33,096 nt of DNA from a virus. The stretch spans positions 1 through 33,096 of IMG/VR virus record IMGVR_UViG_3300021373_001348. One strand, written 5' to 3'. The translations under genes were made by a program, and so were the position numbers. Of this stretch, positions 1,578 to 30,644 are shown one piece after another (within the stretch, counting starts at the first letter, position 1; each line of letters begins with the position of its first letter). The notes beneath the pieces are model-generated. The model was not told the origin of the DNA, searched no databases, and saw nothing but the letters and a program-made list of their open reading frames with translations.

Positions 1578-1977
1578 ACTTATCTCCTGTTATTTGTTCA
1601 TACATCCAGTCTAGGTTGTATATTCTGTTTGTACTTAATGTATTATACACTAGGTGCTCGCCTTTTGTCAACCAGAAAACATTTGAATATCCCAATAGAT
1701 ATGAAACTATATCAATATGTTTTGGTGAAAAATTGTCTATGTCAAGAATAACATAGTTGCTTCGATGTACAATGTCTAACAACCATTTAATTTCCATTTC
1801 ACTATCTGATTGTTCGTACATATATACATTAAGATTTTTATCAAAGTTTTCAATTAAATTTTGAAACTGTGACTTAGTATCGTCAGTTGGATAAATTAAT
1901 GCGAATGTTAAATTATAGTTGTTTAACTTATCAGGGGGCGTAATTAAATTTATTTTAAGTTGTTTATCGTTTTCCAT
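1567..1977 (-). CDS. Unknown 136-residue protein
   Basis: I do not recognise this protein. It is 136 residues long with no signal peptide or membrane segment. The alternating hydrophobic pattern (YNLTFALIYP, then SNYVILDIDNFSP and YLLGYSNVFWLTKGEHLVY) suggests a small alpha/beta Rossmann-like fold, loosely like nucleoside-deoxyribosyltransferase or TIR-like folds, but no catalytic residue can be assigned. The start at 1977 lies 28 nt inside the end of the membrane-protein gene with a poor Shine-Dalgarno, so translational coupling is likely. The 3' end carries the rpsU Shine-Dalgarno. Confidence 0.7.
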   Translation of the reverse strand: MENDKQLKINLITPPDKLNNYNLTFALIYPTDDTKSQFQNLIENFDKNLNVYMYEQSDSEMEIKWLLDIVHRSNYVILDIDNFSPKHIDIVSYLLGYSNVFWLTKGEHLVYNTLSTNRIYNLDWMYEQITGDKFES

Positions 1978-3731
1978 ATAGAGCCATCTTTTTGTTCTTC
2001 ATTCTGTATATAGCCCTCTTGTGTTTCTTTTTTCTTCTGAACTGAACCTTCTTTAGAAATAAAGTTCTTACTTTCTACATACCCTGCCCAAGGTACCTCG
2101 TCAATTTTACCGTCGATATATAATTGCTTAAAGAACTTTAGTGTTTGTCTAGGATTTTCATCTTTCCAACGTTGTTTAGCTTCTTGCCAAGTATCGTCTT
2201 CTTCTTGATCGTCTAGTTCTTTAACTCTTACTTCTTTTGATTCTTCCGAAAATTCTACTCTTTTTTTTTGAGTCTCGTCGTCAAACTCTTTGTCTAAGGT
2301 TTCTTGATCGACGTCTTCATAAGACTGTATTTCGTCTGGTTCCACTGGCTTAGTTGTTGCATCTGAATTGGTAGTATCATCTTCTGGTACCACGTCTCTA
2401 TCATCTCCATCTGGAGCAACATCATCTTCTGTAGCATTTACTTCTTCCTCTTCTTTAGGCGGCGTAGAATTGTCAGGATTATAAGGAACGTTGTCAACTA
2501 TACGCTGTGCTCTTGCTCGTTCGTATTCTTCTCTCTCGAGCCGAAGACGTTCACCGTTATCATCTTCAAGTTGTTTACGTCTAAACTCAAAGGTATATTG
2601 TGATGCGATTAGTAATAGTACTGCTAATGGATCAAACACAAAGATAATAATTATTATTACCCAACGTACAGCTTCTTCAAGCATATTATTATCTGCGGCT
2701 TCACCGTACACAAATTCAGCAATATATTTGATTGGTCCTACTTCTGCTTCTAATTTTCGATATTCTGATTCTAGTTCTATTTTCTCTTCTGTTAGTGTTT
2801 CTATCTCAGAAGATGCTGTTCGAACACGGTCTAGTTGTTCATCTATGGCCTTTTGTATATCATCTTGATTACTAGTATCGCCTAATTGATCGCGTAGTCT
2901 ATTAATTAATATGTTAGACTGTTCAATTTGTCTGTCAGCATTATCACGTAATCTTGCTATTTCTTTACGTGCTGCCTGAACTGTCGGACTGTTGGCAGCG
3001 TCTTGTATTTTAGTTAACCATTCACCACGTTCTGCCTGTTTTGCTTCCTTCCAGTCGCCAATTTTTTCTGCTGTTTTTTTACCAAAGATGCCGTCTGCAC
3101 TAGCACCAATCATTTGTTGTGCTTTTTTAACTTCACCGTTGTCTACATAACCTTGTAGTGTTTCTAGGTCTGCATCTATTTTATCTAATTCGTTTTGAAA
3201 TAACTGTGTAACACTTGCAATTATTTTATTTTGTTCTGCAATAGCAGGTTTAATTCTTTCGTATGCTGTGTCAATACGATCTTGTTCTTTATCAATTTGA
3301 CCTTGTATATTTTCGTCGGTGGCTGTTTCGCTTGACTCGAGTTGACGCACTCTATTTTCTGCACGACCAACAATACCTAGCTGCCTATCAATTTCATTTT
3401 GAATTGTTTCAACTCTTGCAATACTTTCTTCGCCTGCACTAGTTTGTTCAATATGTGCTTTTGACAAGAAACCAAAGATACCCATTGAAGTAATAAGCAT
3501 TAGTACAAAAACTGCTACACCTAAATAAGTCCTAAGCCACCAGGCGGCTTGTTTCCAATACTTGTGTAACCACACTGCGGTTACAAGTTTTCCAATTTCT
3601 AGTACCCCACCCATAATCATAATGGGAACGGCCGCTGCCGCAAAGATTGCAACCAATCCTGCAACAGAGTAGTATATTGCCACTGCACTAATTGCTAAGG
3701 CAGTGATGAGAGTTAGTATAGCTAAGAACAT
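1950..3731 (-). CDS. Membrane protein with long coiled coil and PG-binding-like motif
   Basis: A 593-residue protein of unknown function; similar architectures occur in other T4-like marine phages. The visible order is: two or three hydrophobic helices at about 3-50, another at 67-89, a long charged coiled coil at about 100-335, a further membrane segment at 356-378 (IIIIFVFDPLAVLLLIA), then a very acidic, Glu/Asp-rich cytosolic tail. Within the coiled coil, residues about 200-228 read like a degenerate PG_binding_1 repeat (AQQMIGASADGIFGKKTAEK), which in other proteins contacts peptidoglycan. This could anchor an inner-membrane protein to the wall. A weak late-promoter-like GTTAAATA is at 3736-3743, just before the ATG. 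It heads the bS21/guaC gene string. Confidence 0.8.
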   Translation of the reverse strand: MFLAILTLITALAISAVAIYYSVAGLVAIFAAAAVPIMIMGGVLEIGKLVTAVWLHKYWKQAAWWLRTYLGVAVFVLMLITSMGIFGFLSKAHIEQTSAGEESIARVETIQNEIDRQLGIVGRAENRVRQLESSETATDENIQGQIDKEQDRIDTAYERIKPAIAEQNKIIASVTQLFQNELDKIDADLETLQGYVDNGEVKKAQQMIGASADGIFGKKTAEKIGDWKEAKQAERGEWLTKIQDAANSPTVQAARKEIARLRDNADRQIEQSNILINRLRDQLGDTSNQDDIQKAIDEQLDRVRTASSEIETLTEEKIELESEYRKLEAEVGPIKYIAEFVYGEAADNNMLEEAVRWVIIIIIFVFDPLAVLLLIASQYTFEFRRKQLEDDNGERLRLEREEYERARAQRIVDNVPYNPDNSTPPKEEEEVNATEDDVAPDGDDRDVVPEDDTTNSDATTKPVEPDEIQSYEDVDQETLDKEFDDETQKKRVEFSEESKEVRVKELDDQEEDDTWQEAKQRWKDENPRQTLKFFKQLYIDGKIDEVPWAGYVESKNFISKEGSVQKKKETQEGYIQNEEQKDGSIWKTINNLK

Positions 3732-3770
3732 ATACTATTTAACCTGTTTAATGTAGTTCATTATATAGCC

Positions 3771-4208
3771 TTATATTCCTACCCAGCGCCATTCGTTCTG
3801 TGTACCACTACTTTGACAAGCAGTTTCTTCAAAATGCCGTGATTTACCTTTAACTGTAATCATACTATAAATTACACGGCAGTAACCACTGCTAATAGGA
3901 TACCCGTGTACTGCTTTTACACTGCCTTTAGCAGTGTCTTCGTACCAATTGTATACTATCCCATAGTCGCTTTCTAAAGCGGCGTGTACTGCACTATTTT
4001 GCTTACGCTTTTGCTCGTCTGTTAATGTATGCCTTGACCAATCTAACACGTCAATTACAAAAGTAAGCGAACTTGCTCCAGGCGAATAGTTTGCTTTTGC
4101 ACTTCTGTTAATGCTTTCACTTTGTTGTGGTAAAGTTCCACAAGCAGTGATGCTAATTAACAGTGCCGTTAATATTAAGAACTTCCCAACTACCATCGAG
4201 TTTCTCAC
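3771..4208 (-). CDS. Lipoprotein with 17-kDa-surface-antigen-like C-terminus
   Basis: A 145-residue secreted lipoprotein. The start is GTG at 4206-4208, chosen because AGGAG lies 6 nt upstream; an internal ATG is four codons later. The signal peptide (MVVGKFLILTALLISITAC) ends in a lipobox with the lipidated Cys about residue 23. The C-terminal part, with YCRVIYSMITVKGK and ETACQSSG before EWRWVG, resembles the end of the RT0821/Lpp0805 or 17-kDa surface-antigen family (YCREY...ACR...DGxW). It is the last of three overlapping lipoprotein genes, overlapping its upstream neighbour by 56 nt. The likely location is the outer membrane. Its role is unknown; receptor masking or superinfection exclusion is inference. 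Confidence 0.82.
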   Translation of the reverse strand: MRNSMVVGKFLILTALLISITACGTLPQQSESINRSAKANYSPGASSLTFVIDVLDWSRHTLTDEQKRKQNSAVHAALESDYGIVYNWYEDTAKGSVKAVHGYPISSGYCRVIYSMITVKGKSRHFEETACQSSGTQNEWRWVGI

Positions 4209-4491
4209 AACGTACTCCTCTTACTTCTACTGTTGTATTCCATCGACGTTCAGGGTAAAAGAATTCTTCACACTTTGAGTCGATACCTGCTCTTGCAATT
4301 TGCATTTGTTGTCCAGGACGATCTGTACATTGTACAACTGTTGTACTACTTACGTTAGTACCGTCCTGTTTAACTATTGCTTGGTCTGTATAACAATATT
4401 GTGGAGTATAATCGTATTGATGATTACTAGCACATCCTGTTAGACCTAAAATTCCAATGCTAGTTATTAGAAGCAATTCTCGCACTTGCAT
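4153..4491 (-). CDS. Lipoprotein, unknown family
   Basis: A 112-residue lipoprotein with signal peptide LLLITSIGILGLTGCAS; the lipobox is LTGC. The mature part is small, with four Cys after the lipidation site (YCYTDQ, VQCTDRP, SKCEEF, VRCEKL), consistent with periplasmic disulfides, and ends DGSWEVLNING. Start: the ATG at 4489-4491 is only 1-2 nt after GGAG, whereas a GTG at 4483-4485 lies at proper spacing, so GTG may be the true start. It overlaps the first lipoprotein gene by 32 nt. I do not recognise a named family. Confidence 0.78.
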   Translation of the reverse strand: MQVRELLLITSIGILGLTGCASNHQYDYTPQYCYTDQAIVKQDGTNVSSTTVVQCTDRPGQQMQIARAGIDSKCEEFFYPERRWNTTVEVRGVRCEKLDGSWEVLNINGTVN

Positions 4492-4957
4492 TCTCCGCTA
4501 CTAATGAATCAAAAACTGCTTTGGGCATTTTAAGTTTTACAAACGTATAGTGTTTGCCTGCGTAGATATAAGTTCCACGTTCTTCTTCAAGATGCTGTGT
4601 AATTGCTGTATCTGATACTCTGTACGAGATAGTAGTACGGGTAGTTTTTACATCGTTTACAAAATCTAATTTTGTTTCGCTGTTAACTAATCCGTTAATT
4701 CTTTTTGCAAAGTTATTCATTGAGATTGCATACATTTGTTCTTCTGCCGCTTGTTGATGAATACTTTCACCTGCGCCACACGCATATGCAAATTCTTCTT
4801 TCCACCAAAAGAATCCTTCAGCGCCTGATTGAGCGCACGAAGCATACCATTTTGGTTGTGCGTAACTATCACGTTCTGCAATAGTTGTTGTAGTTGAACA
4901 AGCGCCTAGTGTTAGTACAATTGCGCCTGCTGTTAAAGCCTTAGTAAAGCCTTTCAT
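4460..4957 (-). CDS. LPP20-like lipoprotein
   Basis: A 165-residue lipoprotein. The signal peptide MKGFTKALTAGAIVLTLGAC ends in a clear lipobox, Cys20. The mature part starts near PKWYASC and has the LPP20-type pattern (W-Y..C, then ACGAGESIHQQAAEEQMYAI and FAKRINGLVNSET) followed by a strand-rich half. LPP20-type lipoproteins of proteobacteria are outer-membrane proteins of uncertain function. GGAGG lies at good spacing before the ATG. This is the first gene of the lipoprotein triad and lies 42 nt from the -10 element of a sigma70-type promoter, suggesting early or independent expression by host RNA polymerase. Confidence 0.82.
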   Translation of the reverse strand: MKGFTKALTAGAIVLTLGACSTTTTIAERDSYAQPKWYASCAQSGAEGFFWWKEEFAYACGAGESIHQQAAEEQMYAISMNNFAKRINGLVNSETKLDFVNDVKTTRTTISYRVSDTAITQHLEEERGTYIYAGKHYTFVKLKMPKAVFDSLVAENASARIASNN

Positions 4958-4998
4958 TTATGCCTCCATAAAGTGAGTTGTTTATTCATTATGTTTAT

Positions 4999-5027
4999 AG
5001 TGTATGATCATTTTATTAAAATGTCAA
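4999..5027 (-). promoter_or_regulatory. Sigma70-type promoter for lipoprotein triad
   Basis: On the minus strand TTGACA (5022-5027), a 17-nt spacer and TACACT (4999-5004) precede the first lipoprotein gene. The -35 is perfect and the -10 matches at four of six positions. This would let host RNA polymerase start the triad independently of late transcription. Confidence 0.6.
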
Positions 5028-5041
5028 TAGTTTTTGGTAAA

Positions 5042-5545
5042 TTAATCTTGTCGATAAAAGATGTGTTCGCCAATTCTACCAATTAGAGTAAAATGTCTTG
5101 ACCAGTCAGGAGATACATATTTTGCGTGGTAGTGTGTTGCGCCTTCAGTTATACCTACAAAATCTCCATATGTCATCATATTATATGCTACGTGTTGTGA
5201 TTCTACCCAAGCATCCATATTAGTAGGCCAATCACTCTTACCGTCACAATACCAACTGAACTGACAACGATTACGTATCATACGTCCGTCGGCATACTGT
5301 TTGCCTTGTTTTACTACAGTACAAATTGTGTTTGGATATCGATTATCTTTTACACGATTTAATACAACGTCAGCAACAGCCATTCGATCAGCACGATTAC
5401 TGGAACGTGCTTCGTAATAAACGTTTTGTGCTAAACACCACATCTCCGGCTGGTCGTCTGCTGTAAACAATCCTTTGGCTTGACCTGCTTGTGCAAAACT
5501 TAAACTTGCTAAACAAAATCCAACTACTGTGATTAAATTTTTCAT
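5042..5545 (-). CDS. Secreted SleB/CwlJ-like cell-wall hydrolase
   Basis: A 167-residue protein of the Hydrolase_2 (SleB/CwlJ) type. After a cleavable signal peptide (MKNLITVVGFCLASLSFAQA) comes the family core: LAQNVYYEARSSNRADRMAV with the likely catalytic Glu, ADVVLNRVKDNRYPNTICTV, QFSWYCDG and a GATHYHA...PDW segment. Members cleave peptidoglycan glycan strands. The Sec signal means it can reach the periplasm without a holin, acting as an exported endolysin or a wall-remodelling enzyme. AGGAG lies 6 nt before the ATG. It sits between the lipoprotein triad and an unknown gene, 2 nt from the latter, so both probably use the strong promoter at 6030-6058. Confidence 0.9.
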   Translation of the reverse strand: MKNLITVVGFCLASLSFAQAGQAKGLFTADDQPEMWCLAQNVYYEARSSNRADRMAVADVVLNRVKDNRYPNTICTVVKQGKQYADGRMIRNRCQFSWYCDGKSDWPTNMDAWVESQHVAYNMMTYGDFVGITEGATHYHAKYVSPDWSRHFTLIGRIGEHIFYRQD

Positions 5546-5547
5546 AA

Positions 5548-6000
5548 TTATCTCCTCATCTTTGCAATTTCTTCTGCCTGTTTAGTGCCACGCATCACAG
5601 GAACAGCATTTGACTTATGCATTGTAGCAATACCTACAATAAGATCACCTGTATACTTTGGTGACTCTTTCTTAGTACCACCTGAACAACCTCTATTAAA
5701 TGTACCGTTCTTGATTGCTTCTTCCATTGCAGAAGGAATCTTAGGATCATTTCTACGCCAAGATGTATCTGGTGTATATGTGCCTCTACTTTTTACAGGG
5801 GCTTTGTATTCACCACGAACATACGAAATGTAGTCGTCTACTGTGTTGTACTGTAATGAGTGATTGTTTGCTCGACGCATTGCTTTGTTGTGCTTGCGCC
5901 ATTCGATAGTATACCTTTCGATATCTTTTTGTGTTAGAGGCTTTTTCTTACGCTTCTTAGTATTGATGGTACTAAGGCCTCTTGCTAAATGCATTGTCAT
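5548..6000 (-). CDS. Unknown basic phage protein, 150 residues
   Basis: A soluble, Lys/Arg-rich protein of 150 residues; I recognise it only as the kind of hypothetical found in marine T4-like phages. It has a basic N-terminus (KKRKKKPLTQ near residue 16), a helical stretch around ERYTIEWRKHNKAMRR and a C-terminal GDLIVGIATMHKSN segment. No enzyme motif is visible. GGAG is properly placed before the ATG. It is the first gene after a strong sigma70-type promoter, so it is likely early, and the exported cell-wall hydrolase follows after 2 nt. Confidence 0.72.
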   Translation of the reverse strand: MTMHLARGLSTINTKKRKKKPLTQKDIERYTIEWRKHNKAMRRANNHSLQYNTVDDYISYVRGEYKAPVKSRGTYTPDTSWRRNDPKIPSAMEEAIKNGTFNRGCSGGTKKESPKYTGDLIVGIATMHKSNAVPVMRGTKQAEEIAKMRR

Positions 6001-7019: not shown

Positions 7020-7622
7020 TTAAAATGCAATATTAAATTTGACTTCAATTTGCTGTTCAGCCTCATTTAAGTCTTGATCCATTTCGTGTCTTATTGCGAC
7101 AACAAAATTAGATTTTTCAGATACTGGAAGTTCTACACCCAGTTTAGCGTAAGAGTTTAATCCCGATACATCTAGGAAGTCGCCTTCATATGAAACCCAG
7201 TCATAACCAGCTTCCACAAATGGAACAATTTTGCCAACTGGTATTTTCACACCAACGAAAGGACTAATACGTACTTCGTCTTTGTCATAGCTGTCACCTA
7301 ATGTGTAGTGAGTTTCGAAAGTTGCATATGGAGTCGCGCCAGGCAATGAATAGAAAACGCCTTTACTTGCTGTAAAACGGTAATCTTCTAATCCATCTTT
7401 TTCAATGTACTGGAGACCAAGGTCAACTAGATTTCCATTCGTGTTTATTCCAAACACAATTGAATCGTCTGCAAAATCAAAATTTGATCCTGTAAAAAGA
7501 CTTACTCCAAACTTCTCACCTTGTGCATTAATTGCATAAGAGTGATTATCAAAATCTTTTGCTGAAGCACTGCTTACAGAAAAAGAAAAGGCCAAAACGG
7601 CCAACATCAATAAATTTTTCAT
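7020..7622 (-). CDS. Outer-membrane beta-barrel-like protein
   Basis: A 200-residue secreted protein. The signal peptide MKNLLMLAVLAFSFSVSSASA is followed by alternating hydrophobic/polar strands typical of a small outer-membrane barrel (for example FGVSLFTGSNFDF, ISPFVGVKIPVG, IVPFVEAGYDWVSY). The C-terminal strand ends in Phe (IEVKFNIAF), the BAM-recognition signature. The length suits an 8-stranded porin-like or OmpA-like barrel. It has its own late promoter (TATAAATA, 7673-7680) and terminator, so it is monocistronic and probably abundant late. Phage outer-membrane proteins can replace or mask receptors or porins; its exact role here is not known. Confidence 0.85.
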   Translation of the reverse strand: MKNLLMLAVLAFSFSVSSASAKDFDNHSYAINAQGEKFGVSLFTGSNFDFADDSIVFGINTNGNLVDLGLQYIEKDGLEDYRFTASKGVFYSLPGATPYATFETHYTLGDSYDKDEVRISPFVGVKIPVGKIVPFVEAGYDWVSYEGDFLDVSGLNSYAKLGVELPVSEKSNFVVAIRHEMDQDLNEAEQQIEVKFNIAF

Positions 7623-7773: not shown

Positions 7774-8175
7774 TTAGAAGTTAAATGATACACCTATTTC
7801 AATTTCACCACGTGCTTCTGTATTAAAGTCATATGATGTTTCTCCGTATAATGTCATTGCACTTGATACTGAATAATCTACGCCCATTTCGAGTAATGGT
7901 GTTTGTCCATCTTCTAAAATGTTGCTTAATGCAAAATCACTACCTGAAGTATGATTTGTTTCGTAAACTGTAATTGGTGCTTCTGCCCAAAGTGCCAGTG
8001 GGCCAGCTGCTGGTGTCCAACGAAGTTCTGGTTCAATAGTTACGTGATTAGTTTCAGCATCTATTTTGTGGAATGCTTTTGCTTCTGTGTTAATTTCTAG
8101 ACCATTGCCTAGGTCTGCTGCCATTACAGGCGCTGTAGCCATTGCGGCTACTATTGCTAGTACGATTGTACGCAT
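7774..8175 (-). CDS. Small outer-membrane barrel-like protein
   Basis: A 133-residue secreted protein with signal peptide MRTIVLAIVAAMATAPVMAA and repeated amphipathic strands (ALWAEAPITVYET, LLEMGVDYSVSSAMTLYGET, ARGEIEIGVSFNF) ending in Phe, as outer-membrane barrels do. It looks like a shortened relative of proteobacterial porins; only about 113 mature residues remain, too few for a classic 16-strand porin. AAGGA lies 8 nt before the ATG. A late-like but imperfect TATAAAAA is at 8195-8202. It has its own terminator downstream and the tmRNA terminator upstream, so it stands as a single unit next to another barrel gene. Confidence 0.82.
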   Translation of the reverse strand: MRTIVLAIVAAMATAPVMAADLGNGLEINTEAKAFHKIDAETNHVTIEPELRWTPAAGPLALWAEAPITVYETNHTSGSDFALSNILEDGQTPLLEMGVDYSVSSAMTLYGETSYDFNTEARGEIEIGVSFNF

Positions 8176-8335: not shown

Positions 8336-8624
8336 AATGCTATGTTTGGTAACAAGGTCTAACTACCTCGTAGTAGCCCTTAGGCTGCTAATGCGAAGTT
8401 TTCGTTTGCTTCTATTTGTTTTCTTGCGATAACCGTGCTTGCGCCGGGCAACTCCACTCTTCTACTAATCCGCCTGTCGATCCTAGTTCAGCCCCATCAA
8501 AAATACATTCTCAGTTTATCAGTCTGTTGCTTAGTGCTATACACCTAGCAGAATGTATTTTTGGTGGAGCTGTCGGGTACCGCCCCCGAGTCCAGCTCGT
8601 CGTTTGAATTGCTTCAACGTTACA
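8308..8624 (-). ncRNA. ssrA: Circularly permuted (two-piece) tmRNA
   Basis: Transcribed right to left, the acceptor piece comes first. T arm 8589-8573: stem UCGGG/CCCGA with loop GGCGGUA. The acceptor 3' strand CAGCUCC (8572-8566), discriminator A and an encoded CCA (8564-8562) follow. A 66-nt intervening segment (8496-8561) starts a 13-bp hairpin (8499-8511 with 8550-8562; its last pairing base is the terminal A of CCA). The coding piece begins GGGGCUG (8495-8489), pairing with CAGCUCC as a 7-bp acceptor stem, then AACUAGGAUCGAC. An H-type pseudoknot (CCG/CGG crossing GCG/CGC, 8447-8426) precedes the resume codon GCA (8409-8407). The tag reads ANENFALAA and stops UAA (8382-8380); it would follow the Ala carried by tmRNA. 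A small hairpin ACUAC/GUAGU follows. Permuted genes are known from alphaproteobacteria and some cyanobacteria; this tag is of proteobacterial type. The exact mature ends are unknown. Confidence 0.95.
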
Positions 8625-8630
8625 AGTATA

Positions 8631-8659
8631 TTTATAACACAGAAATTATTATATGTCAA
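8631..8659 (-). promoter_or_regulatory. Sigma70 promoter of the tmRNA gene
   Basis: On the minus strand TTGACA (8654-8659), 17 nt, then TATAAA (8631-8636) places the start near 8624, just before the acceptor piece. It overlaps the stop codon of the 8656-8982 gene. Confidence 0.8.
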
Positions 8660-8982
8660 CCTAAAATCAAATCCATAGCAAACTTTTTGTCTTCTATATC
8701 TTCGGCAGTTAAGCCCTTGTCTTCTTTTTTAGGCTTAATAGGTTCTAACCAACTGTCTGCAATGTATGCACGTGGTGATGGTCCAAGCATAATACTTAAA
8801 TCTTCTGCTTCAATCCACCAAAAGTTATCTGTAACAGCAGCCTGGCACATCATTCCGTTAAAATGAAAATGTGTACCTCTTTCAAAATGTCCAATAAGTT
8901 CAGCAACTTTTACAATGCGCCCAATGTTCTCAGGACGTACACTATATTTTATAACTGCTAAATCACCTTGTTTACATTTCAT
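8656..8982 (-). CDS. Unknown small soluble protein
   Basis: A 108-residue protein beginning MKCKQGDLAVIKYSVRPENI, a strand-rich start like small SH3/KOW-type barrel proteins that occur as hypotheticals in bacteria and phages. It contains a hydrophobic WWIEAEDLSI segment and an acidic-basic C-terminal tail. No catalytic motif is seen. It overlaps the preceding gene by 11 nt. The tmRNA promoter lies across its stop codon, so the two transcription units touch. Confidence 0.65.
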   Translation of the reverse strand: MKCKQGDLAVIKYSVRPENIGRIVKVAELIGHFERGTHFHFNGMMCQAAVTDNFWWIEAEDLSIMLGPSPRAYIADSWLEPIKPKKEDKGLTAEDIEDKKFAMDLILG

Positions 8983-9911: not shown

Positions 9912-10208
9912 TTAGGAATTAGCAAAAACATTGTTAGAACCAGTAGCTGCCGCATTTGGAACCCACGAACCGTGACCGCCGGTTGCGTCACCTTTACGAT
10001 GTACAGCTATATTATTTGCAAATACATTTGCACTGCCTACTTGTGCTGGATCACCACAAACTGTAGTGTCACCTATCCTTACAGTTGCTTCGTTATTAGT
10101 GAACACATCAGGAGATCCTTCGTTATAACTAGTTTGATGATATGGTCCCGGGCTAGGTGAAGCGTGTCCTTGGTGTACATCTACGTTTGTTCTTACTACT
10201 TCTGGCAT
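9912..10208 (-). CDS. PAAR-like spike-tip protein
   Basis: A 98-residue Gly/Asn/His-rich protein with PAAR-like repeats: SPDVFTNNEATVRIGDTTVC, SANVFANNIAVHRKGD and SNNVFANS, with scattered His/Cys (HQGH, YHQ, VCGDP, GGHG) that could bind the metal at the needle tip. PAAR proteins cap the central spike of contractile tails (T4 gp5.4 in the T4 case) and help pierce the outer membrane. It follows the giant fibre gene with a TAATG overlap, so it is made with late tail proteins. Confidence 0.85.
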   Translation of the reverse strand: MPEVVRTNVDVHQGHASPSPGPYHQTSYNEGSPDVFTNNEATVRIGDTTVCGDPAQVGSANVFANNIAVHRKGDATGGHGSWVPNAAATGSNNVFANS

Positions 10209-13200
10209 TACATAACTCCTACAAAAATTTCAATAATTTTTACATCTAAAGAATCGTTAGTTTCAATTGCTTTACCTATCATTGCTCCGCCTATAAACTT
10301 GTCAGTTGCTACTGCTACACCTGGAACATCACTTGCTACTAATAAGTCTCCTTTACTTACAGGGCCAATTACCTTACACGGAATACGACCTTTAAGTGCA
10401 AGAGGTTGTCCTTGTGCTTCGGCATTTAGTAAGTAACCCGGCATAGTACTTATAACTCCTGCAACTTGAATACTAGCATAAGAAGTTGTTTGAGTAAGTT
10501 CTTCGGCACCGCCAAATTCTACAACAGTTCCTGGTTCGTATATTCTATCAGTAGAATAAATTTCAGCTAAGTCAGCATAATTAGCTGTAGTTGCATTACC
10601 ACTAAAGGTGCTTGCTTTAAGTGTTGAACTACTAGGAACATAACTTAAACCGTCAACTGAAGTATCGTCCATCTTTAGATCTTTAGATCCGGTAGTACCA
10701 CTAGCAAATACTGGATAGAATGTACCACTGTTGGTACGTTCTTCAGTTACTGTTATTTGTGTTGATGCGGCACTTCCTGTTAGTGTAATTGTATTGCCGT
10801 TTTGTGTTGCTGTAACAGTGCCTCCACCTGCAATAGTAACTGTACCAGTAGTTTCGCTGCCACTTATGCCTACACTAGTTACAGTATTAGTGTCTGTAAA
10901 CAATGCACCTGCTGGCACTGCTGTTTTAACATTATCAAAAGCCCAGTCTGAGCTTATGCTTGTTGTAGTTGCTCCATTAGTAGGTGTAGAAGATATAGGT
11001 CTAAATGTATTAGTATCAGTAAATAATGCATTCGCTGGTACTGCTGTTTTAACATTGTCAAATGCCCAGTCTGAGCTAATTGCTGTAGTTGTTGCTCCAT
11101 CAGTTGGGGTACTAGATATTGCAAGTTGAGTGTTTTCCCAAGGTACATTAACATACATCTTACCGCTTGATAATTCAACTGGATAATTCTTACCATTTTC
11201 AGTATATCCAACTTTAACTAGTCCTAGTGTAGATCCTGTAGCAGTTGAATACGTTGTATTTGTAAATGTAAGTTCAGTACCGTCATTTTGAAAAAGTGAA
11301 AGTGTGTTACCAATTATTTCAGCTTCTACTATATTTTCATTTGGTAGTACATACGTATTAGCATCATTGGTACCTGTATAACCTAAATCTGCCAATGTAC
11401 CTAAATCTTCAATACTAAGTGTTTTAGATGTTACACTTGAAACGTGTCCAAAATTGTCAAACTCTATACTTTGAAGAACAGTATCATCAGCAGTGTTAGT
11501 TTCGTCCGATATAGTGCTTGTAGAATGTGATATTGTTATTGTACCACCTGAAACATTTCCGTTTACATCTATCTTGTCACTTCCTGCAAAAATTACATCT
11601 TGACTACTAGTGCCGTCGTCTAATCTGATTCTAGTTTGATCAGCAGCGGCATCACCTGTATCATTGAAGACATTTAATGCGTATTGAGTATCAGTACCAC
11701 TTATAGTAATTGTATTTGCGTTTTGTGTAATAGCAACGCTGCCGCTGTCTGCTAGTGTTACTGTTCCAGCAGTTTCACTACCACTTAGGCCTACACTAGT
11801 TCTAGCAATACTAAATGTACCATTAATACTATTATAACTAATATCGCCTGCGCCAGTAAACAATGCTCGTATATCAGCGTCTGTTCGTTGTGCATCAGCA
11901 CTAAATGAAAATACTCCAGTAGTATTGTCGTATGACAAATCTCCAGAAGCACTAAGATCTGTAAGTGCAATAAAATTTGAATCATTAGATAGATCACTAA
12001 CTGCTGTTGGTATATCGCCACCGACAAATTGTCCAGTTGCACTGTTGTATGATACACTGCCGCCACCACTAAATTGACTTCTAATATCAGTTGGTGTTAC
12101 TCCAGTGTGTGTAAACACTCCTGTTGAACTATCATACGCTAATGATCCGTAACGAATACCAGCAGTATTTGCAGCACTAATAAATCCTCGTACATCGCCG
12201 GCTCCTACTTCTCCAGCAGTAAAACTCATTACGCCAGTTGTGTTGTCGTAACTTAAATCACCACTTGCACTAATCATTTGTCTAATATCAGAAGTTGGCG
12301 TTCGAGTATAAGAAAATACTCCAGTGTCAGCATTGTAACTTAAATCACCACTTGCACCAACTGCACTTCGAACTTCAGTAAAACTAGGACCAGTATATAA
12401 AGCAATACCAGATGCACTACTATAAGTTAACGATCCAAGGTATGTTTCGTCTGCATCACTTGCTGTTTGAGAAACTGCTATTGAACTTCTTGCGTTAGAA
12501 GTAGTAAATTTTGTTATGTTAAATTGTCCAGTATTAGAGTTGTATGATAAGTCTCCTCCAGCACTAAACAGATTACGAATATCTTGATCTGTCTTTTCAC
12601 TAAATTCTATTTGACCAGTTGCAGCATTATAAGTTATACTACCTGTTACACTAAATGCACCGCGTATTTCGTCTATAGTAATACCTGTATATGTAAATGC
12701 CCCATTATTATTATCGTAACTTAAATCACCATATCGAGTATTACCGTCACTAGTAGTAACTGCGCTGAGATGTGCCCTTACTTCCGTTGCACTAGGTCCA
12801 GTGTAAGTAATTACACCTGTACTATTGTCGTATGCTAATGAACCGTCGCCACCGCTATCTGTAACACTTATTGATCCCCTAGCTCTACTTTGTGTGAACC
12901 ACAAATTAGTCGGAGTGACATCTTCTGCAATATCATCTGTTACTAGTGTAATGCTGTTATCTACATTTGCACTCCTGCTGTTTACTTCAAATGTTTTACT
13001 ATTGGCATAAGATTCAACATAATCTTTGTTGGCTGCATCTGTTCCACTTACTGGTGTTCCAACTCTATTAATTAAATTAGTTGACATATCAAGATTACCA
13101 GTCAACGGTTGTGTTGCTGTTAAGTCTAAATATCCCGGACCAATTTTAGCAGGAACAACTTGCCCGGCGTGTGTAAGTCCTAGCCTTCTGTTTACATAAC

Positions 13201-16200
13201 TGCGTACTGCACTTTCAGTTGGTACAGTATCACTAGCATTATCAGTCATTGCATCGTCAGTTGAGAATTCACTAATTGCAACACCACGTTTAAATCCAAT
13301 GCCGTCTAAGTTCGAAAGAGCAATACTTGCTGAGAATGTAACTGTACCTGTTCCTTGATCAACTTTAAAATAATCTCCAACTCTAAAGTTACCATCTTGG
13401 TCGGTGGTTACATAGAACACTCGACCTTTGCCTTCCTCGACTACTTCTTTTGATTGTTGAGCAGCAAATTCTGGTGCACCGTATATTTCGTTTGGATAGC
13501 TCGATGTTTGATAGCTACCAGTGCCAATACTAAGCAAGTCGTGTCCTGTAACTCTTAGTGTACTAATACCTACAGTAATCCTAGCAACAGTATCTGCAGG
13601 AACGCCAGCTCGCATTGTAGGAGCGTCAGGGTATACACCAAATGATCTTGTTAGTGCCGGTGTTACATCTACTTCTGCATAAAGTTGTCCTGTAGTTGCT
13701 TTGTCTCTGTATGCAGTTATTTCGTGTATTGTTCCATCGAAACCAAATTTATATGGTTTACTATTGGCAATTGCTCCTTGTATTCTCGCTGCTTCATTAG
13801 CGTCAAAGTCTACGTCTAAACGTAAAGTAGTATCACCAACTTGCCCAGATCCTGCAACACTGCCTGCTGTATCGTCTAGTACTAATTTAACATAATCATA
13901 ACTTTCACGAAGTGTAATACGTGCTTCGCCTTCAGGCAATCCTACAACATCATATGCTAGTACACGGTATACTTTATCTGGATCATCGTCATAAACTAAT
14001 GCTGTACTAGGACGAGTTGGATTAACATCAATAATGCCATTATACTTAACAACTTGGTTTGCCCGAATAACAGCAGATGTGCCGTCGGCAATATCTACTT
14101 GTATACCAGGATTGTCTGGAGCACCTTGTGCAATGTTTAAAGAGTAAACTTGAGGACTTGTTCCATCAATTGGAGTTATATTTGTTACTTCATATCTGTT
14201 TAGGTAAACCGGATCACCATTTATATCATTAGCGCCATTGTGATCAATTTCTATTTCACTTACGTTAAATGGTGCATAATCTGGATTGATAATATATATT
14301 ACCGTATCACCTCTTTGATTAGGATAATCTCCGGTTGTTTTTACCGTAGCAATTTGTACTACATCTTCTGCTACAAATACTTGGTCGCTTACTTCTAACG
14401 GATCACTACCTTTAGCAACAAGAGCAAAGTCACCGTATGCTGTTGAACCGTTTAGTGAACGTATGTCTGAACCATTTTCTGCTAGATAACTTACGTGATT
14501 ATAATAACAGAATACACTAACTAGTTCACACCGTGCATTGTTGGTTGTGTATACACCATAGCCTAAATCATTTACTTGCGTAAAGTCATTACCAAGCATA
14601 CTGATGTTACCAGCAGTAAGTAATTCTATGTTATAGGGCACCGTAGGCAACGCTACAGCAGTCTCGTTTACAATTTGATAGTAAGAAAGCTGCCAAGGTG
14701 TTGCAGGGTTTAATAATAGTCTATACTCGCCTGCACCTACACCAACTGTGTCTGCTTTGTCTACTTGAAAACGTGAGCCGTTGATAAAGAAACTAGTTGG
14801 AGTTTGTGGCTGTCTAAACACATTATCAATAACAATTTCAGTTGGACTGTTTATTTGTTTAATACGTGCATCTAAATTACCAGCAAAGCCGTCAATAAAC
14901 ATACCCCCACCGAATAATACGTCTGGTGCTATAGACTTTGAAAAACTTGATGCTGTTTGTGTGTAAGGAGATTTAGTAAGTATCTGTCCTTCTGGATCTA
15001 ACACTTCCATAAAGCCGCCGTGCCCTTGTACACTGATGTTTCGTATAATGGTTGCATCATTCATTAGGAACACATCCATATTGTCATTGTCTTTAGGTGC
15101 GTTAAAGTTTCCGTTTATTATTTCTACTACAGAGCCAATTAAATCCTCAGCAACACTTTGTTCTGAACTTTCTAATAATGCACTTACTTGTACTTTTAAA
15201 TGATTAATTGCTGCGGCAGTTTCTGTAACTTGATCTGCTGGCAGCTGACCTTGATATGTAAGAGCTGCAAATAGTGTTTCTTGATATCCACCGTATAGCA
15301 TATCTAACGCTGTTGCATCAACAATGTAACCTACATCACGTCTACACTTTGCTTCATCGTACACTAAACTAGGATAAGTTGTAGTAATAAAGTTTATAAC
15401 ACTATCTTGTAGTGATTGTTTTATTGCCATTGTAGACAATGTTTTGTATGCTTCGTCATAGTCACCAGGATTAACAGCATATGTATAAACATTATTTGTA
15501 CGATCAGCTAGATAATGTGCGCCGAATGGATTATCACCAACTACTAACGGATCTAATCCAAGATGCTCTGCTCCACGCTTAAATCTTATATTTGACCACG
15601 GACTAGCACTTGCGCCAGGACGAGGTCGTATAATACTACGTCTAAACTCATCGCCTTTAATTGAAGTATTGTTTGGAACTTTTATTGGAAAATGTTCAAA
15701 GTAAACACCACTTTCAACTCTAATTGTTATTTCAGGATACTCTGTCCCAGCTGCTTTATATTCACTATATGGAACACCCGGAATTGGATTACCAAATTTC
15801 AATTGTTCATTAGTTACGAATGTGCCTTCTTCAACCTTTATAATTAACTGATCTGCTGTTTGGCCAGCATTTACATTATATTCTTCAATAATACCAACTG
15901 CACCACTAGTTTGGCCAATTACTCTAAATCCGCTGCGAAGTTCAGTTCGAGCATCTAATTCACTGGCTCCTTTGAATATTGCAATATCTTTAAAATCATC
16001 AACATCACCAATTGATACAATGTACGAACGCTTCTGTGCTACTTGACTGTCGTATGTGATCCATTTTTGATATGGTCCTAATCCTTTTGAAGCTCTGTTA
16101 ATTACTCGTTCGGCTTCTCTACAAGCAGCGTTTATACTCGCAAATGCTGTTCCTGGTGTACGACCTCTTTTAACTCCAAATATATTATCATCACGTCCGT

Positions 16201-16558
16201 TAGGTGAAACAAATAATACATTAGTACTTGTTTGGAAAGGGGTGCTTGCTACTAGATAATAATCTGAACCGTCCGAGTATTCTAAACTTTGTGTCGCTGT
16301 ATTATATCTAAAAAGACCGCTCGATGCCAGAGGTCTTTCTGCGGTGCCTTGTAAAGTTAATTCAGTTAAATTACCTGCATCATCAACCTTTATTTTGTCG
16401 CCAAAAGCAGGCTTGCCACCTGCTGTTTCGCTATCACCTATATATAATTGATCGTTTTCGGTATCATAGATAACTTCGCCGTTAAGTGGCGTAAAAGTTT
16501 TTCTATCAGCTGTTGGGCCTCGCCTAACAAGTATACTACCGTGTTCTGGATCTGACAT
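10208..16558 (-). CDS. Giant repetitive tail-fibre/structural protein, 2116 residues
   Basis: The largest gene here. Residues 1-55 (SILVRRGPTADRK, then NGEVIYDTENDQLYIGD) match the small N-terminal domain shared with the major tropism determinant and many marine phage fibres. About 95-1000 looks like a beta-helix/lyase-like shaft (LFVSPNGRDDNIFG; SGVYFEHFPIKVPNNTSIKG). About 1235-1585 carries eleven copies of a G-x-L-x-Y-[DN]-x-x-[TS]-G-x-F motif, most followed by a helix such as TDIRSQFS. A 41-residue tandem duplication lies near 1813-1895. The last ~125 residues (YADLAEIYSTDRIYEPGTVV...) are a C-terminal domain common in cyanophage and pelagiphage fibres. GAGGA lies 7 nt before the ATG. It probably forms a long host-binding fibre; no catalytic residues are assigned. 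Confidence 0.88.
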   Translation of the reverse strand: MSDPEHGSILVRRGPTADRKTFTPLNGEVIYDTENDQLYIGDSETAGGKPAFGDKIKVDDAGNLTELTLQGTAERPLASSGLFRYNTATQSLEYSDGSDYYLVASTPFQTSTNVLFVSPNGRDDNIFGVKRGRTPGTAFASINAACREAERVINRASKGLGPYQKWITYDSQVAQKRSYIVSIGDVDDFKDIAIFKGASELDARTELRSGFRVIGQTSGAVGIIEEYNVNAGQTADQLIIKVEEGTFVTNEQLKFGNPIPGVPYSEYKAAGTEYPEITIRVESGVYFEHFPIKVPNNTSIKGDEFRRSIIRPRPGASASPWSNIRFKRGAEHLGLDPLVVGDNPFGAHYLADRTNNVYTYAVNPGDYDEAYKTLSTMAIKQSLQDSVINFITTTYPSLVYDEAKCRRDVGYIVDATALDMLYGGYQETLFAALTYQGQLPADQVTETAAAINHLKVQVSALLESSEQSVAEDLIGSVVEIINGNFNAPKDNDNMDVFLMNDATIIRNISVQGHGGFMEVLDPEGQILTKSPYTQTASSFSKSIAPDVLFGGGMFIDGFAGNLDARIKQINSPTEIVIDNVFRQPQTPTSFFINGSRFQVDKADTVGVGAGEYRLLLNPATPWQLSYYQIVNETAVALPTVPYNIELLTAGNISMLGNDFTQVNDLGYGVYTTNNARCELVSVFCYYNHVSYLAENGSDIRSLNGSTAYGDFALVAKGSDPLEVSDQVFVAEDVVQIATVKTTGDYPNQRGDTVIYIINPDYAPFNVSEIEIDHNGANDINGDPVYLNRYEVTNITPIDGTSPQVYSLNIAQGAPDNPGIQVDIADGTSAVIRANQVVKYNGIIDVNPTRPSTALVYDDDPDKVYRVLAYDVVGLPEGEARITLRESYDYVKLVLDDTAGSVAGSGQVGDTTLRLDVDFDANEAARIQGAIANSKPYKFGFDGTIHEITAYRDKATTGQLYAEVDVTPALTRSFGVYPDAPTMRAGVPADTVARITVGISTLRVTGHDLLSIGTGSYQTSSYPNEIYGAPEFAAQQSKEVVEEGKGRVFYVTTDQDGNFRVGDYFKVDQGTGTVTFSASIALSNLDGIGFKRGVAISEFSTDDAMTDNASDTVPTESAVRSYVNRRLGLTHAGQVVPAKIGPGYLDLTATQPLTGNLDMSTNLINRVGTPVSGTDAANKDYVESYANSKTFEVNSRSANVDNSITLVTDDIAEDVTPTNLWFTQSRARGSISVTDSGGDGSLAYDNSTGVITYTGPSATEVRAHLSAVTTSDGNTRYGDLSYDNNNGAFTYTGITIDEIRGAFSVTGSITYNAATGQIEFSEKTDQDIRNLFSAGGDLSYNSNTGQFNITKFTTSNARSSIAVSQTASDADETYLGSLTYSSASGIALYTGPSFTEVRSAVGASGDLSYNADTGVFSYTRTPTSDIRQMISASGDLSYDNTTGVMSFTAGEVGAGDVRGFISAANTAGIRYGSLAYDSSTGVFTHTGVTPTDIRSQFSGGGSVSYNSATGQFVGGDIPTAVSDLSNDSNFIALTDLSASGDLSYDNTTGVFSFSADAQRTDADIRALFTGAGDISYNSINGTFSIARTSVGLSGSETAGTVTLADSGSVAITQNANTITISGTDTQYALNVFNDTGDAAADQTRIRLDDGTSSQDVIFAGSDKIDVNGNVSGGTITISHSTSTISDETNTADDTVLQSIEFDNFGHVSSVTSKTLSIEDLGTLADLGYTGTNDANTYVLPNENIVEAEIIGNTLSLFQNDGTELTFTNTTYSTATGSTLGLVKVGYTENGKNYPVELSSGKMYVNVPWENTQLAISSTPTDGATTTAISSDWAFDNVKTAVPANALFTDTNTFRPISSTPTNGATTTSISSDWAFDNVKTAVPAGALFTDTNTVTSVGISGSETTGTVTIAGGGTVTATQNGNTITLTGSAASTQITVTEERTNSGTFYPVFASGTTGSKDLKMDDTSVDGLSYVPSSSTLKASTFSGNATTANYADLAEIYSTDRIYEPGTVVEFGGAEELTQTTSYASIQVAGVISTMPGYLLNAEAQGQPLALKGRIPCKVIGPVSKGDLLVASDVPGVAVATDKFIGGAMIGKAIETNDSLDVKIIEIFVGVM
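10874..11119 (-). repeat. 41-residue tandem duplication inside the fibre gene
   Basis: Two adjacent 123-nt units (10997-11119 and 10874-10996) encode near-identical 41-residue segments starting ISSTPT[DN]GATTT and ending TDTNT. Only a few residues differ, so the copy is recent or kept alike by recombination. Confidence 0.85.
11803..12853 (-). repeat. Eleven-copy degenerate protein repeat in the fibre gene
   Basis: Eleven copies of a 16-residue beta motif (e.g. GDLSYDNTTGVFSFSA, GSLAYDNSTGVITYTG), spaced about 25-50 residues apart and usually followed by an [DE][IV]R-x-x-[FI] helix. The DNA is diverged, as expected for a long fibre shaft. Confidence 0.85.
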
Positions 16559-24990: not shown

Positions 24991-25003
24991 TTACTTTTTT
25001 TTT
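24991..25003 (-). other. Candidate -1 frameshift site (A9 followed by stop)
   Basis: On the minus strand A AAA AAA AAG TAA ends the 278-residue frame. Slipping back one base continues AAA GTA AAT GAA into the 24674 frame without a stop, giving a product of about 384 residues. A one-base error in the homopolymer would look the same. Confidence 0.45.
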
Positions 25004-25827
25004 GAAAGGATAGAACCTAATTTGCGGCTTCTTTCTACGCTTTCGCGTTTTGCACGGCCTGCTTCTTCTTCGCCGCCTACTGCTGGTTCTGCTGCTGCCA
25101 TTCCGTCGTCTTCTGCTGGGACTTCTGCATCAACTTCTGCATCCACTGTTGGTTCCATTTCTGGCTCTTCTGCCGGTACTTCGTCACCCATTGGAGTTTC
25201 AGGAGCTGCTTCGCCTGTTAATATTCCAACACCTGCTGTAGTTGCTTCACGTGTTGCTTCCAGTGCTGTATATAGTGCTTCTAGTGCTGGTTTCACAGAG
25301 TTTGTAAATGCTTCTGATTGCTCCGATCCCATTTCATCACGAATTGAGTCTGCTAGTTCTAACATACTTTCAGTTTGCATTTCTGCTGTGTCTTCCATCC
25401 AACTGGTAATGCGGTCTACCATATCTTTAGCCGCCATTACTAATTCAGCTGCTTCTTCTGCACCTTCTTTTACTGGTTTCTTTTTCTTTTTATCTTTAAT
25501 GGCTTTTTTCATTGGCTCTTTTTTATCGCCATCTTTATCCATATCTAAGAAGTCTGGCTTAGCTGTTTCCTCAACGTCCCCACGCTCTGTAATTTCTGCA
25601 TTTAGTACATCAAGGAAGAGTTTTGATTTTTGATACGTATCATTTTTTACAGAGTTAAAACTTTCATTAGTTTCTATTTGACTAAGTGTTGTGCGCACCT
25701 TATTACGTGCATCAGCTAATTGCTCAAGTGTAAAGTTTTCTAAAGCAATGCGTTGCCCAAATCGTTTTGCTAGGCTCTCGTTCAGCGATTTTGCTGTAAC
25801 TGGTTTTGAAATTTCTCTTATATTCAT
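24991..25827 (-). CDS. Putative head-region protein, acidic, EF-hand-like motif
   Basis: A 278-residue, mostly helical protein of the late block. The N-terminus MNIREISKPVTAKSLNE resembles a capsid-targeting start. Residues about 93-102 (DMDKDGDKKE) look like an EF-hand/dockerin calcium loop, followed by a Lys-rich stretch, a helical middle (LVMAAKDMVDRITSWMEDTA) and a very acidic, Ala/Pro/Glu-rich segment before a basic end (SKKK). Composition resembles T4 prohead core/scaffold proteins, but this is inference. The late promoter GATAAATA is 37 nt upstream. It ends on a slippery A9 run. Confidence 0.72.
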   Translation of the reverse strand: MNIREISKPVTAKSLNESLAKRFGQRIALENFTLEQLADARNKVRTTLSQIETNESFNSVKNDTYQKSKLFLDVLNAEITERGDVEETAKPDFLDMDKDGDKKEPMKKAIKDKKKKKPVKEGAEEAAELVMAAKDMVDRITSWMEDTAEMQTESMLELADSIRDEMGSEQSEAFTNSVKPALEALYTALEATREATTAGVGILTGEAAPETPMGDEVPAEEPEMEPTVDAEVDAEVPAEDDGMAAAEPAVGGEEEAGRAKRESVERSRKLGSILSKKK

Positions 25828-29477: not shown

Positions 29478-30644
29478 TTATCGTTCAACTGCTCTGTTGT
29501 ATTTACTAAAAGTTTTACGTGGAACAAGTTTTATATCACCTTTTGGGTGTGCTAGTACATACCCTTCGCCACCTTCAGCTGAGTCATCCTTGCTTGACAT
29601 ACTTGATCTAACAGGTGCCCCTGGTTGATTATCAAGTTGATTAATTACATCATCCTTGACTTGTTGTATCTTTGCAACTATTTCCCATAGTGCATTAAAG
29701 CCTTGTTGGTTATTTGCAATGTATTCTGCAATTTTCTTTTTAGCGGGTTCACTTAGTTGTGGTCTTGCCTGTACCCAATCTAAAAAGTCTCCGCCTAAAT
29801 TATCTAACCCTGTATCCACTTTACTGTTCATATACGAATAAAATACGTCAGATAGCTTTTTAAGTTTCATTTGTGTTAGTGTGTTTATATCTAGCATACT
29901 GTCCATTGCCGCAGCATCTTTTGAAATAATTGCTTTAAGTTCTTTAACACTTGTGTCATCAATAGTTGGAGCATCGGATACTGTAACTGGTGGAACAACT
30001 AATACGTCATTGCCTTCAAAAATATCTCCATTTTGTAGAGGACCTTCTGTGCCATCTGCACTTACTTCTCTGTGTATAACAATACCTGCTGTGCTTGCAC
30101 CAATTTTTTTACCTAAGTCTGAATCTTGTTTTACTCTATATTCAACAATGTTTGGTTTAAACACATAGTCGCCACCTTCTGCCATTGGCTTGTTGAAATA
30201 AAGCATATCGCCTTTAAAGAAACCTCTATAGTCTTTAGGTGTTGCTTTTTCAAATGCTGTGTATGCACCTTTCATTTTGTCAATTAGTACGCCGTAACCT
30301 TCTGGGTCCTTTGCATATCCTGGACGGTTTTTAAGCATTGTTTCTACATCTTTTTCTGACTTTGCTTTGCCGTCATATCCTTTTGCTGTAAATCCGCTCT
30401 TGTCGGTGAATATAAAGTTACCATCATCGTCGCGCCCAAAAATGACTGCGGGACTGCCATCCCACTTAACTGTAACATCTGTGTGTCCACCTTTTTCCAT
30501 ATTGATAAGACTTTGTAAAGCACGATTAGCTCCTTTGCTAGGTGGATTTTCTCTAAACACTAAATCTTCTAAGTGTTCAATGCGAGCACCTTCAGTAAGT
30601 TTAACTGACTCTGTCAATGGTGTTTTAAATTCGTTAAATCTCAT
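29478..30644 (-). CDS. Ligase-like covalent nucleotidyltransferase with CTS-like start
   Basis: A 388-residue protein. VTVKWDGSPAVIFGRD at about 57-72 fits motif I (K-x-D-G, nucleophile Lys60) of ATP-dependent DNA/RNA ligases and capping enzymes. Near the C-terminus EGYVLAHPKGDIKLVPRKTF fits motif IV (E-G-x-V) and motif V (K-L-V). Motifs I and IV are about 300 residues apart, far more than in T4 Rnl1, with a helical insert around 230-340. It recalls DUF6267-type cyanophage proteins. The start MRFNEFKTPLTE is CTS-like. It overlaps the nucleotidyltransferase gene by 11 nt, suggesting a shared nucleic-acid repair job. Activity is not proven; a degenerate ligase fold is possible. Confidence 0.72.
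   Translation of the reverse strand: MRFNEFKTPLTESVKLTEGARIEHLEDLVFRENPPSKGANRALQSLINMEKGGHTDVTVKWDGSPAVIFGRDDDGNFIFTDKSGFTAKGYDGKAKSEKDVETMLKNRPGYAKDPEGYGVLIDKMKGAYTAFEKATPKDYRGFFKGDMLYFNKPMAEGGDYVFKPNIVEYRVKQDSDLGKKIGASTAGIVIHREVSADGTEGPLQNGDIFEGNDVLVVPPVTVSDAPTIDDTSVKELKAIISKDAAAMDSMLDINTLTQMKLKKLSDVFYSYMNSKVDTGLDNLGGDFLDWVQARPQLSEPAKKKIAEYIANNQQGFNALWEIVAKIQQVKDDVINQLDNQPGAPVRSSMSSKDDSAEGGEGYVLAHPKGDIKLVPRKTFSKYNRAVER

Follow-up and report, generated by a model that had tools for sequence, protein, structure and literature searches.

In phage T5, the lipoprotein Llp works on the periplasmic side of the outer membrane, where it closes a receptor and excludes superinfection (PMC9586334). 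Since Llp works from this face, a lipoprotein need not reach the cell surface to exclude phages. FlgP, which has an SHS2-like fold common to dodecin and Lpp20, an inserted hairpin, and a helix at the C terminus, builds concentric rings beneath the outer membrane (PMC12222027). In Helicobacter, a ring-forming lipoprotein encoded beside flgP protects the barrier function of the outer membrane, and the authors suggest that the FlgP disk itself is protective too (PMC11756786). Overlapping genes are common among the two-component spanins (PMC6139136).

Here, we analyze a window consisting of a whole 33,096-base viral record (IMG/VR IMGVR_UViG_3300021373_001348, positions 1 to 33,096), in which three overlapping genes, LP1, LP2, and LP3 (the triad), encode candidate lipoproteins. 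SAR11 bacteria are very abundant, and a large part of bacterial killing in the ocean is due to phages of SAR11-type hosts; alteration of the host envelope by such phages has been little tested. Searches for pelagiphage lipoproteins, phage LPP20, and 17 kDa surface antigen in bacteriophage listed no publication describing such a module by its title, and the word "lipoprotein" does not appear in the main texts of PMC7029224, PMC9004378, and PMC9599517.

The triad and its conservation in marine viral contigs

All three genes lie on the minus strand. LP1 (4460-4957), the LPP20/FlgP-like candidate, is an open reading frame (ORF) of 165 aa with a lipobox and a predicted lipid anchor at Cys20, and a GGAGG ribosome-binding site can be read ahead of it at 4963-4967 (minus). 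LP2 (4153-4491) is a Cys-rich ORF of 112 aa with a Cys20 anchor and four further invariant cysteines. LP3, which resembles 17kDa_Anti_2, starts either at the ATG at 4196 (3771-4196; 141 aa) or at the GTG at 4208 (3771-4208; 145 aa). LP1 and LP2 overlap by 32 bp and LP2 and LP3 by 44-56 bp. The lipoboxes LGAC (LP1), LTGC (LP2), and ITAC (LP3), called by motif search and alignments, each follow a basic N terminus and a hydrophobic stretch, so the claim of an earlier sequence-only reading that three overlapping genes each carry a lipobox is borne out. From these signals, the products are predicted to be lipidated and located at the outer membrane.

Relatives of LP1 occur in 68 marine viral contigs, with best segments 57-91% identical in the viral-contig scan, and most of these contigs keep the same gene order, in which a hydrolase stands ahead of LP1, LP2, and LP3 and a membrane protein with four helices follows them. 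According to tblastn at 1e-3, 63 of the 68 contigs contain LP2, 52 contain LP3, 58 contain the membrane protein, and 54 contain the hydrolase, counts that exclude the window's own locus (L001) and include many cut contigs. The overlap between LP2 and LP3 recurs in all 40 pairs (26-80 bp). Given this mostly constant order in 68 contigs, the triad is no chance array.

The lipid anchor is conserved to different degrees in the three families. The anchor cysteine of LP1 is present in 64/64 extracted relatives (60 with the strict motif and the remaining four with LQAC or LNAC), and that of LP2 is present in 54/54 (51 by motif, with 3 others also carrying the cysteine); C20 is likewise invariant in the alignments of LP1 (39 rows) and LP2 (36 rows). 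The LP3 lipobox motif is found in 38 of the 51 extracted relatives, and the other 13 have a plain signal peptide only. These sets leave out relatives with no in-frame start codon (4/68 for LP1, 9/63 for LP2, and 1/52 for LP3). The third protein is thus not always a lipoprotein: "three lipoproteins" describes the window but not a constant trait of the locus.

No relative of LP1 turned up when 84,980 genomes of bacteria and archaea were scanned with two peptide patterns. Together with synteny across dozens of viral contigs, this result excludes the outcome that the same reading named as refuting, a triad missing from close relatives and embedded in host-like sequence. Direct tblastn searches of 50,697 phage records with LP1, LP2, and LP3 of the window, or with LP1 of a 354-kb contig, gave no matches, and relatives among these records were reached through profiles only.

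The 354-kb contig, which bears T4-type capsid and portal genes, contains an LP1 relative; LP2, LP3, and the flanking genes were not found in it by tblastn. By eye, this relative lies amid other lipobox-bearing ORFs (L063:4644-8567). For T4 genes and CsgG, we searched 26 of the 68 contigs, hand-picked from the longer ones. With the window added, this made 27 records, mostly fragments, among which Gp23 and the T4 portal were each found only in the 354-kb contig, the T4 clamp profile matched none, controls included, and a structural query (a 76-aa gene) matched 1 of the 26 relatives. The phage record also holds structural genes, which would suit a reading of the three proteins as parts of the virion or of its injection machinery and not of the cell envelope; yet the triad has conserved export signals and lipoboxes, belongs to no structural family, and stands behind an early-type promoter (see below), making a role in the particle very improbable.

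Protein families and relatives in cultured phages

The family assignments of LP1 and LP3 proposed earlier fared differently at the levels of family and window member. LPP20 (PF02169) matches 7 of 39 LP1 relatives weakly, with a best E value of 0.0029, below the curated cutoff, and LP1 of the window matches no Pfam family by itself. The AlphaFold2 (AF2) model of LP1 (mean pLDDT, 64; pTM, 0.57; hairpin 90-117 below 50) runs in the order strand, long helix, hairpin, two strands, and C-terminal helix. Its structural matches are weak: Helicobacter pylori Tip-alpha (Z, 4.9; rmsd, 4.9 over 95), dodecins at a Z of about 4, and chain A of the Campylobacter jejuni flagellar periplasmic scaffold 9hmf (Foldseek E, 0.01; prob, 0.82), a chain that is probably FlgP, judging from its length. 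Profiles of LP1 and LP3 gave only chance-level matches to sequences of solved structures. The LPP20-like assignment of LP1 is therefore weakly upheld, through the family matches, the fold matches, and the link to phage Mosig described below. Agreement among individually weak matches tentatively suggests that LP1 is LPP20/FlgP-like.

For LP3, 17kDa_Anti_2 (PF16998) matches 14/36 relatives, with a best E value of 1.7e-9, so that the likeness to the 17-kDa antigen stands at the family level; the window member alone has no match. LP2 has five invariant cysteines in 36 rows (C20, C33, C55, C74, and C95), no family was found for it, and its AF2 model (pTM, 0.31) gave no useful fold match. LP2 and LP3 align by hhalign (87.6% over 34 columns) across the C-terminal Cys/Trp hairpin only; the two may thus be distantly related. 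A relationship between LP2 and T4 Spackle was considered and dropped, as 1/36 members matched at signal-peptide level (E, 0.031), the PDB profile aligned at its positions 7-42, a stretch made up mostly of signal peptide, with an E value of 0.73, and Spackle was missing among the fold matches of LP2.

Distant relatives of the triad are found in cultured phages. In Pelagibacter phage Mosig, the LP1 profile matches a lipoprotein of LPP20-like type with a probability of 97.4 over 160 columns, and the LP2 profile matches a 130-aa protein with an hhalign probability of 96.9 over 78 columns; E values from such single-profile comparisons differ from database E values. Control comparisons with the 130-aa family scored 0.7 for LP1 and 1.8 for LP3, while two further pairings, of LP2 with the LPP20-like family (67) and of LP1 with LP3 (71), aligned over 16-19 signal-peptide columns only. 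In the LPP20-like family of Mosig, the LPP20 profile matches 15/19 members, with a best E value of 0.00015. Of 340 matching contigs, the 80 with the best matches were examined for the Mosig-type pair of LPP20-like and LP2-like genes; the two genes occur together in 78 of these, and the other two contigs are cut at that point. Relatives of the Mosig lipoprotein are present in 7 of the 50,697 phage records, namely, Mosig, two HTVC008M records, and four Melnitz strains.

In HTVC008M, a cultured SAR11 phage, a 17kDa-type lipoprotein, an LP2-like protein, and an LPP20-like lipoprotein are encoded within 1.7 kb (L217 2854-4555), which adds counterparts in a cultured phage to the synteny among viral contigs. 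The corresponding proteins AGE60507, AGE60510, and AGE60512 are annotated only as hypothetical or surface-antigen proteins. The 17kDa-type lipoprotein matches PF16998 below the cutoff (E, 2.3e-4), and the LP2-like protein was identified by the profile of the 130-aa Mosig protein (E, 6e-15 for 10 proteins). The LP2 profile itself scores the 17kDa-type protein (5e-7) above the LP2-like one (0.01; E values for 10 proteins), which speaks against a simple one-to-one reading. Weaker matches to single HTVC008M sequences were obtained by hhalign with the LP3 profile (75.3 over 67 columns) and the LP1 profile (60.9 over 92).

Flanking genes, promoters, and late-type motifs

Upstream of LP1 lies an exported cell wall hydrolase (5042-5545, minus; Hydrolase_2, PF07486; Pfam E, 2.4e-22), and downstream of the triad lies a 593-aa membrane protein (1950-3731, minus) with four hydrophobic segments, a long putative periplasmic coiled coil, and a PG_binding-like DGxFG motif; the peptidoglycan-binding-like motif occurs in 39 of 56 copies. 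The membrane-protein family is also seen in Mosig, in the jumbo phages XacN1, SCTP-2, and RAS14, in Flavobacterium phage immuto, and in Microcystis phage Mel-JY01. In Mosig, the homologue directly follows an exported glucosaminidase.

The sequence-only reading placed a sigma70-type promoter ahead of the triad, and this proposal has held. The site (4999-5027, minus) consists of TTGACA (5027-5022), a 17-nt spacer, and TACACT (5004-4999), a 10/12 match. By raw number, sigma70-type sites in the region are as frequent as expected by chance (33 versus 32.9). Ahead of LP1, a site of at least 10/12 is kept in 34 of 45 distinct upstreams, against a shuffled mean of 1.1; such sites also precede g150 (5548-6000) in 42/47 and g98 (1281-1577) in 24/39. 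We compared these sites with a T4-late-like motif, N[ACT]TAAATA within 70 nt of the gene. Two initial patterns, CTT(T)AAATA and TATAAATA, proved too narrow, and the pattern was widened after inspection of the upstreams; it was thus chosen with the data in view, and the shuffles are its only control. Only distinct full-length upstreams were counted, with hits for g278 and g388 starting at most 30 residues from the query start, and the counts are not independent, as the upstream sets are made of related sequences.

The late motif is absent ahead of LP1 (0/45), LP2 (0/38), and LP3 (0/38). It precedes the membrane protein in 38 of 43 upstreams (shuffled, 4.0) and the hydrolase in 24 of 45 (shuffled, 3.6), and it stands ahead of g278 (24991-25827), a head/packaging gene, in all 17 upstreams (shuffled, 1.5). 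A second late-region gene, g388 (29478-30644), shows no excess (2/16); the motif is therefore validated as late on one gene only, g278. In the window, a late-type motif, GTTAAATA (3736-3743, minus), stands 12 nt ahead of the membrane-protein start codon, and none was seen ahead of the hydrolase. Since the motif often lies only 12-15 nt from the start of the membrane protein, which would give a very short leader, its promoter role there is not certain. In the Mosig lineage, for which the late motif was written slightly wider, as NNTAAATA, a sigma70-type site precedes the LPP20-like gene in 45/45 distinct upstreams and a late motif does so in 2/45; for the 130-aa gene, the corresponding counts are 36/46 and 1/46. 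No sigma70-type site of at least 9/12 was found directly before the HTVC008M or Melnitz counterparts.

A sigma70-type promoter and no late motif at LP1, versus late motifs at the neighbors, suggest that the triad is probably made early by the host polymerase; we infer early or middle expression for the triad and late expression for the genes on both sides. The conserved promoter combined with the absence of the late motif appears to be a new observation, and it would fit an early role such as superinfection exclusion.

This promoter split bears on whether the locus is a lysis cassette, in which the hydrolase would cut peptidoglycan, the membrane protein would act as an inner-membrane spanin, and at least one lipoprotein would be the outer-membrane spanin partner that opens the outer membrane. 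The two neighbors flank the triad in most relatives, the membrane protein combines its long coiled coil with the peptidoglycan-binding-like motif, and its Mosig homologue stands directly after the glucosaminidase; moreover, the triad genes overlap, as is common in two-component spanins (PMC6139136). Yet the early-type promoter of the triad differs from the late-type motifs of the hydrolase and the membrane protein, which weakens this explanation. The inner-membrane partner of a two-component spanin has one N-terminal transmembrane segment and a periplasmic coiled coil, in contrast to the four hydrophobic segments found here. In Mosig, furthermore, about 3 kb separate the LPP20-like pair from the glucosaminidase and the membrane protein, so the lipoproteins are separable from the lysis genes. 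Overall, we regard a lysis function of the triad as unlikely.

Candidate roles at the outer membrane and comparison with known systems

The reading that we prefer, although we place it slightly below an even chance, is an early remodeling of the outer membrane on its inner side, the most likely benefit being the exclusion of superinfecting phages. The three genes would form an envelope module read early or mid-infection from a host sigma70-type promoter, and their products would be exported, would receive a lipid at the cysteine (in LP3, only in some of the relatives), and would end up on the periplasmic side of the host's outer membrane. There, LP1, as an LPP20/FlgP-type SHS2 protein, would self-associate; LP2 and LP3, putative small beta domains whose conserved cysteine pairs may form disulfides, would lie beside it; and the three would remodel or line the membrane. 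The infected cell may thereby become refractory to a second phage. The timing, assembly, and exclusion proposed here draw on the conserved order and the invariant LP1 and LP2 cysteines, the promoter split, the sigma70-type sites of the Mosig lineage, the clustering in HTVC008M, and the strand-helix-hairpin-strand-strand-helix order that the LP1 model (pLDDT, 64) shares with FlgP. Against them stand the weak fold matches of LP1 (best Z, 4.9; Foldseek E, 0.01) and its lack of a Pfam match alone, the anchor missing from 13/51 LP3 proteins, the HTVC008M and Melnitz genes with no sigma70-type site in front, and the 2/16 count for g388. In a bolder version, a lytic marine phage would assemble, at an early stage, a polymeric, FlgP/basal-disk-like sheet of lipoprotein beneath the host's outer membrane, joined by two Cys-rich lipoprotein partners, and so seal the cell to other phages; such a three-part superinfection-exclusion coat, working from inside and common to SAR11 myophages, seems to us rather doubtful.

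The same anatomy would suit envelope reinforcement, in which an LPP20/FlgP-like layer steadies the outer membrane of a long-infected cell during insertion of the hydrolase, a curli pore, and outer-membrane proteins, with no exclusion of phages. The Helicobacter ring-forming lipoprotein and FlgP disk, which guard the outer-membrane barrier (PMC11756786), and the phage curli and outer-membrane barrel genes nearby argue for it; its anatomy equals that of early remodeling, and we hold it to be a minor possibility. Two exported proteins of the window (7020-7622 and 7774-8175, minus) weakly match Phage_OMP, a family of cyanophage outer-membrane barrels (E, 0.00036 and 0.074); changes to outer-membrane proteins may thus be a further effect of the phage. 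An esterase/lipase-like gene (31848-32618, plus) lies on the opposite strand (phrog_21992; E, 8.6e-26; GHSLG motif by eye), and a 2,116-aa tail-fiber-like protein (10208-16558, minus) resembles Mosig and cyanophage fibers in its central part.

A phage curli locus encoding CsgF, CsgG, and curlin-repeat proteins lies about 10 kb downstream of the triad in relatives of the window (L083:9571-14052, L085:13006-18123, and L086:2874-7165). In L083, a close relative, it encodes CsgF, CsgG, two curlin-repeat proteins, and a FecR-domain protein, and the window ends before the corresponding position. Between the triad and the curli genes (L083:5324-7101 and L085:7610-10936) are ORFs that we take, by eye, to be look-alikes of GroES, a small heat shock protein, and ClpS, with DnaK in L085. 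Curli loci have been published for pelagiphages and Melnitz (PMC7029224, PMC9004378), and so have curlin repeats and FecR in pelagiphages; we therefore dropped the idea that phage curlin repeats (CsgA/B) are new (PMC9599517). The triad could be an accessory of this type VIII secretion locus, for instance, as assembly or gating factors of CsgG. CsgG is present in 15/26 related records, always on the strand of LP1 and downstream of it, at a distance of 8.9-11.8 kb in 14 records and of 19 kb in the remaining one (two of the 26 are too short to tell), and csgGF also occurs in cultured pelagimyophages and Melnitz (PMC7029224, PMC9004378). Yet the csg genes form their own cluster, and of the 24 records that extend 12 kb or more downstream, 9 keep LP1 but lack CsgG, including contigs of 155 and 354 kb; such records weaken the proposal, and we find it improbable.

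As to the host, the window carries a permuted tmRNA of the alphaproteobacterial type (8336-8674, minus; Rfam RF01849, E, 6.3e-23; RF04321), found by Rfam, while ARAGORN reported neither tRNA nor tmRNA in the window. Its type hints at an alphaproteobacterial host or ancestry. Mosig and Melnitz also have tmRNAs, and the hint falls short of proof since Melnitz infects OM43 (PMC9004378).

Early remodeling and the other readings can be set against described systems. Like Rz/Rz1 spanins, the triad and its neighbors comprise lipoproteins with lipoboxes, a putative inner-membrane coiled-coil protein, an adjoining peptidoglycan hydrolase, and overlapping genes. They differ from spanins in that the promoter of the triad is of another class than those of its two neighbors, the membrane protein has four hydrophobic segments, and the lipoproteins number three. 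LP1 shares with the LPP20 family (Helicobacter Lpp20 and Campylobacter FlgP) its lipoprotein nature, an SHS2-type order in the model, a Pro-x-Trp-Tyr motif, and an Ala-rich helix; it differs in scoring below the curated cutoff, in being a phage gene with extra conserved Cys residues, and in having no flagellar gene seen close by. LP3 relatives share Trp, YCR, and AC-x(n)-W motifs with the 17 kDa outer-membrane surface antigen domain; unlike PF16998 antigens, the window member has no match by itself and some relatives lack the lipid anchor.

The pelagimyophage sets are like the triad in that genes for 17kDa-type, LP2-like, and LPP20-like proteins stand side by side in HTVC008M (AGE60507, AGE60510, and AGE60512), as do those for LP2-like and LPP20-like proteins in Mosig (Mosig_00167 to Mosig_00169). 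They differ in their opposite order, in a small membrane gene between, and in an LP2-like protein without a lipobox, and the HTVC008M genes have no sigma70-type site directly before them. A conserved, separately promoted set thus points to named genes in the cultured pair HTVC008M/HTCC1062, and the contrast between early and late promoters offers a way to tell envelope remodeling from lysis genes in uncultured phages. Compared with T5 Llp and Cor, the triad consists of three larger proteins and its tail-fiber-like gene (10208-16558) is about 5 kb away, whereas Llp is one small protein encoded beside the receptor-binding gene. Yet all are phage-encoded lipoproteins, and the periplasmic face of the outer membrane, from which Llp acts, is by analogy the site where the triad would work.
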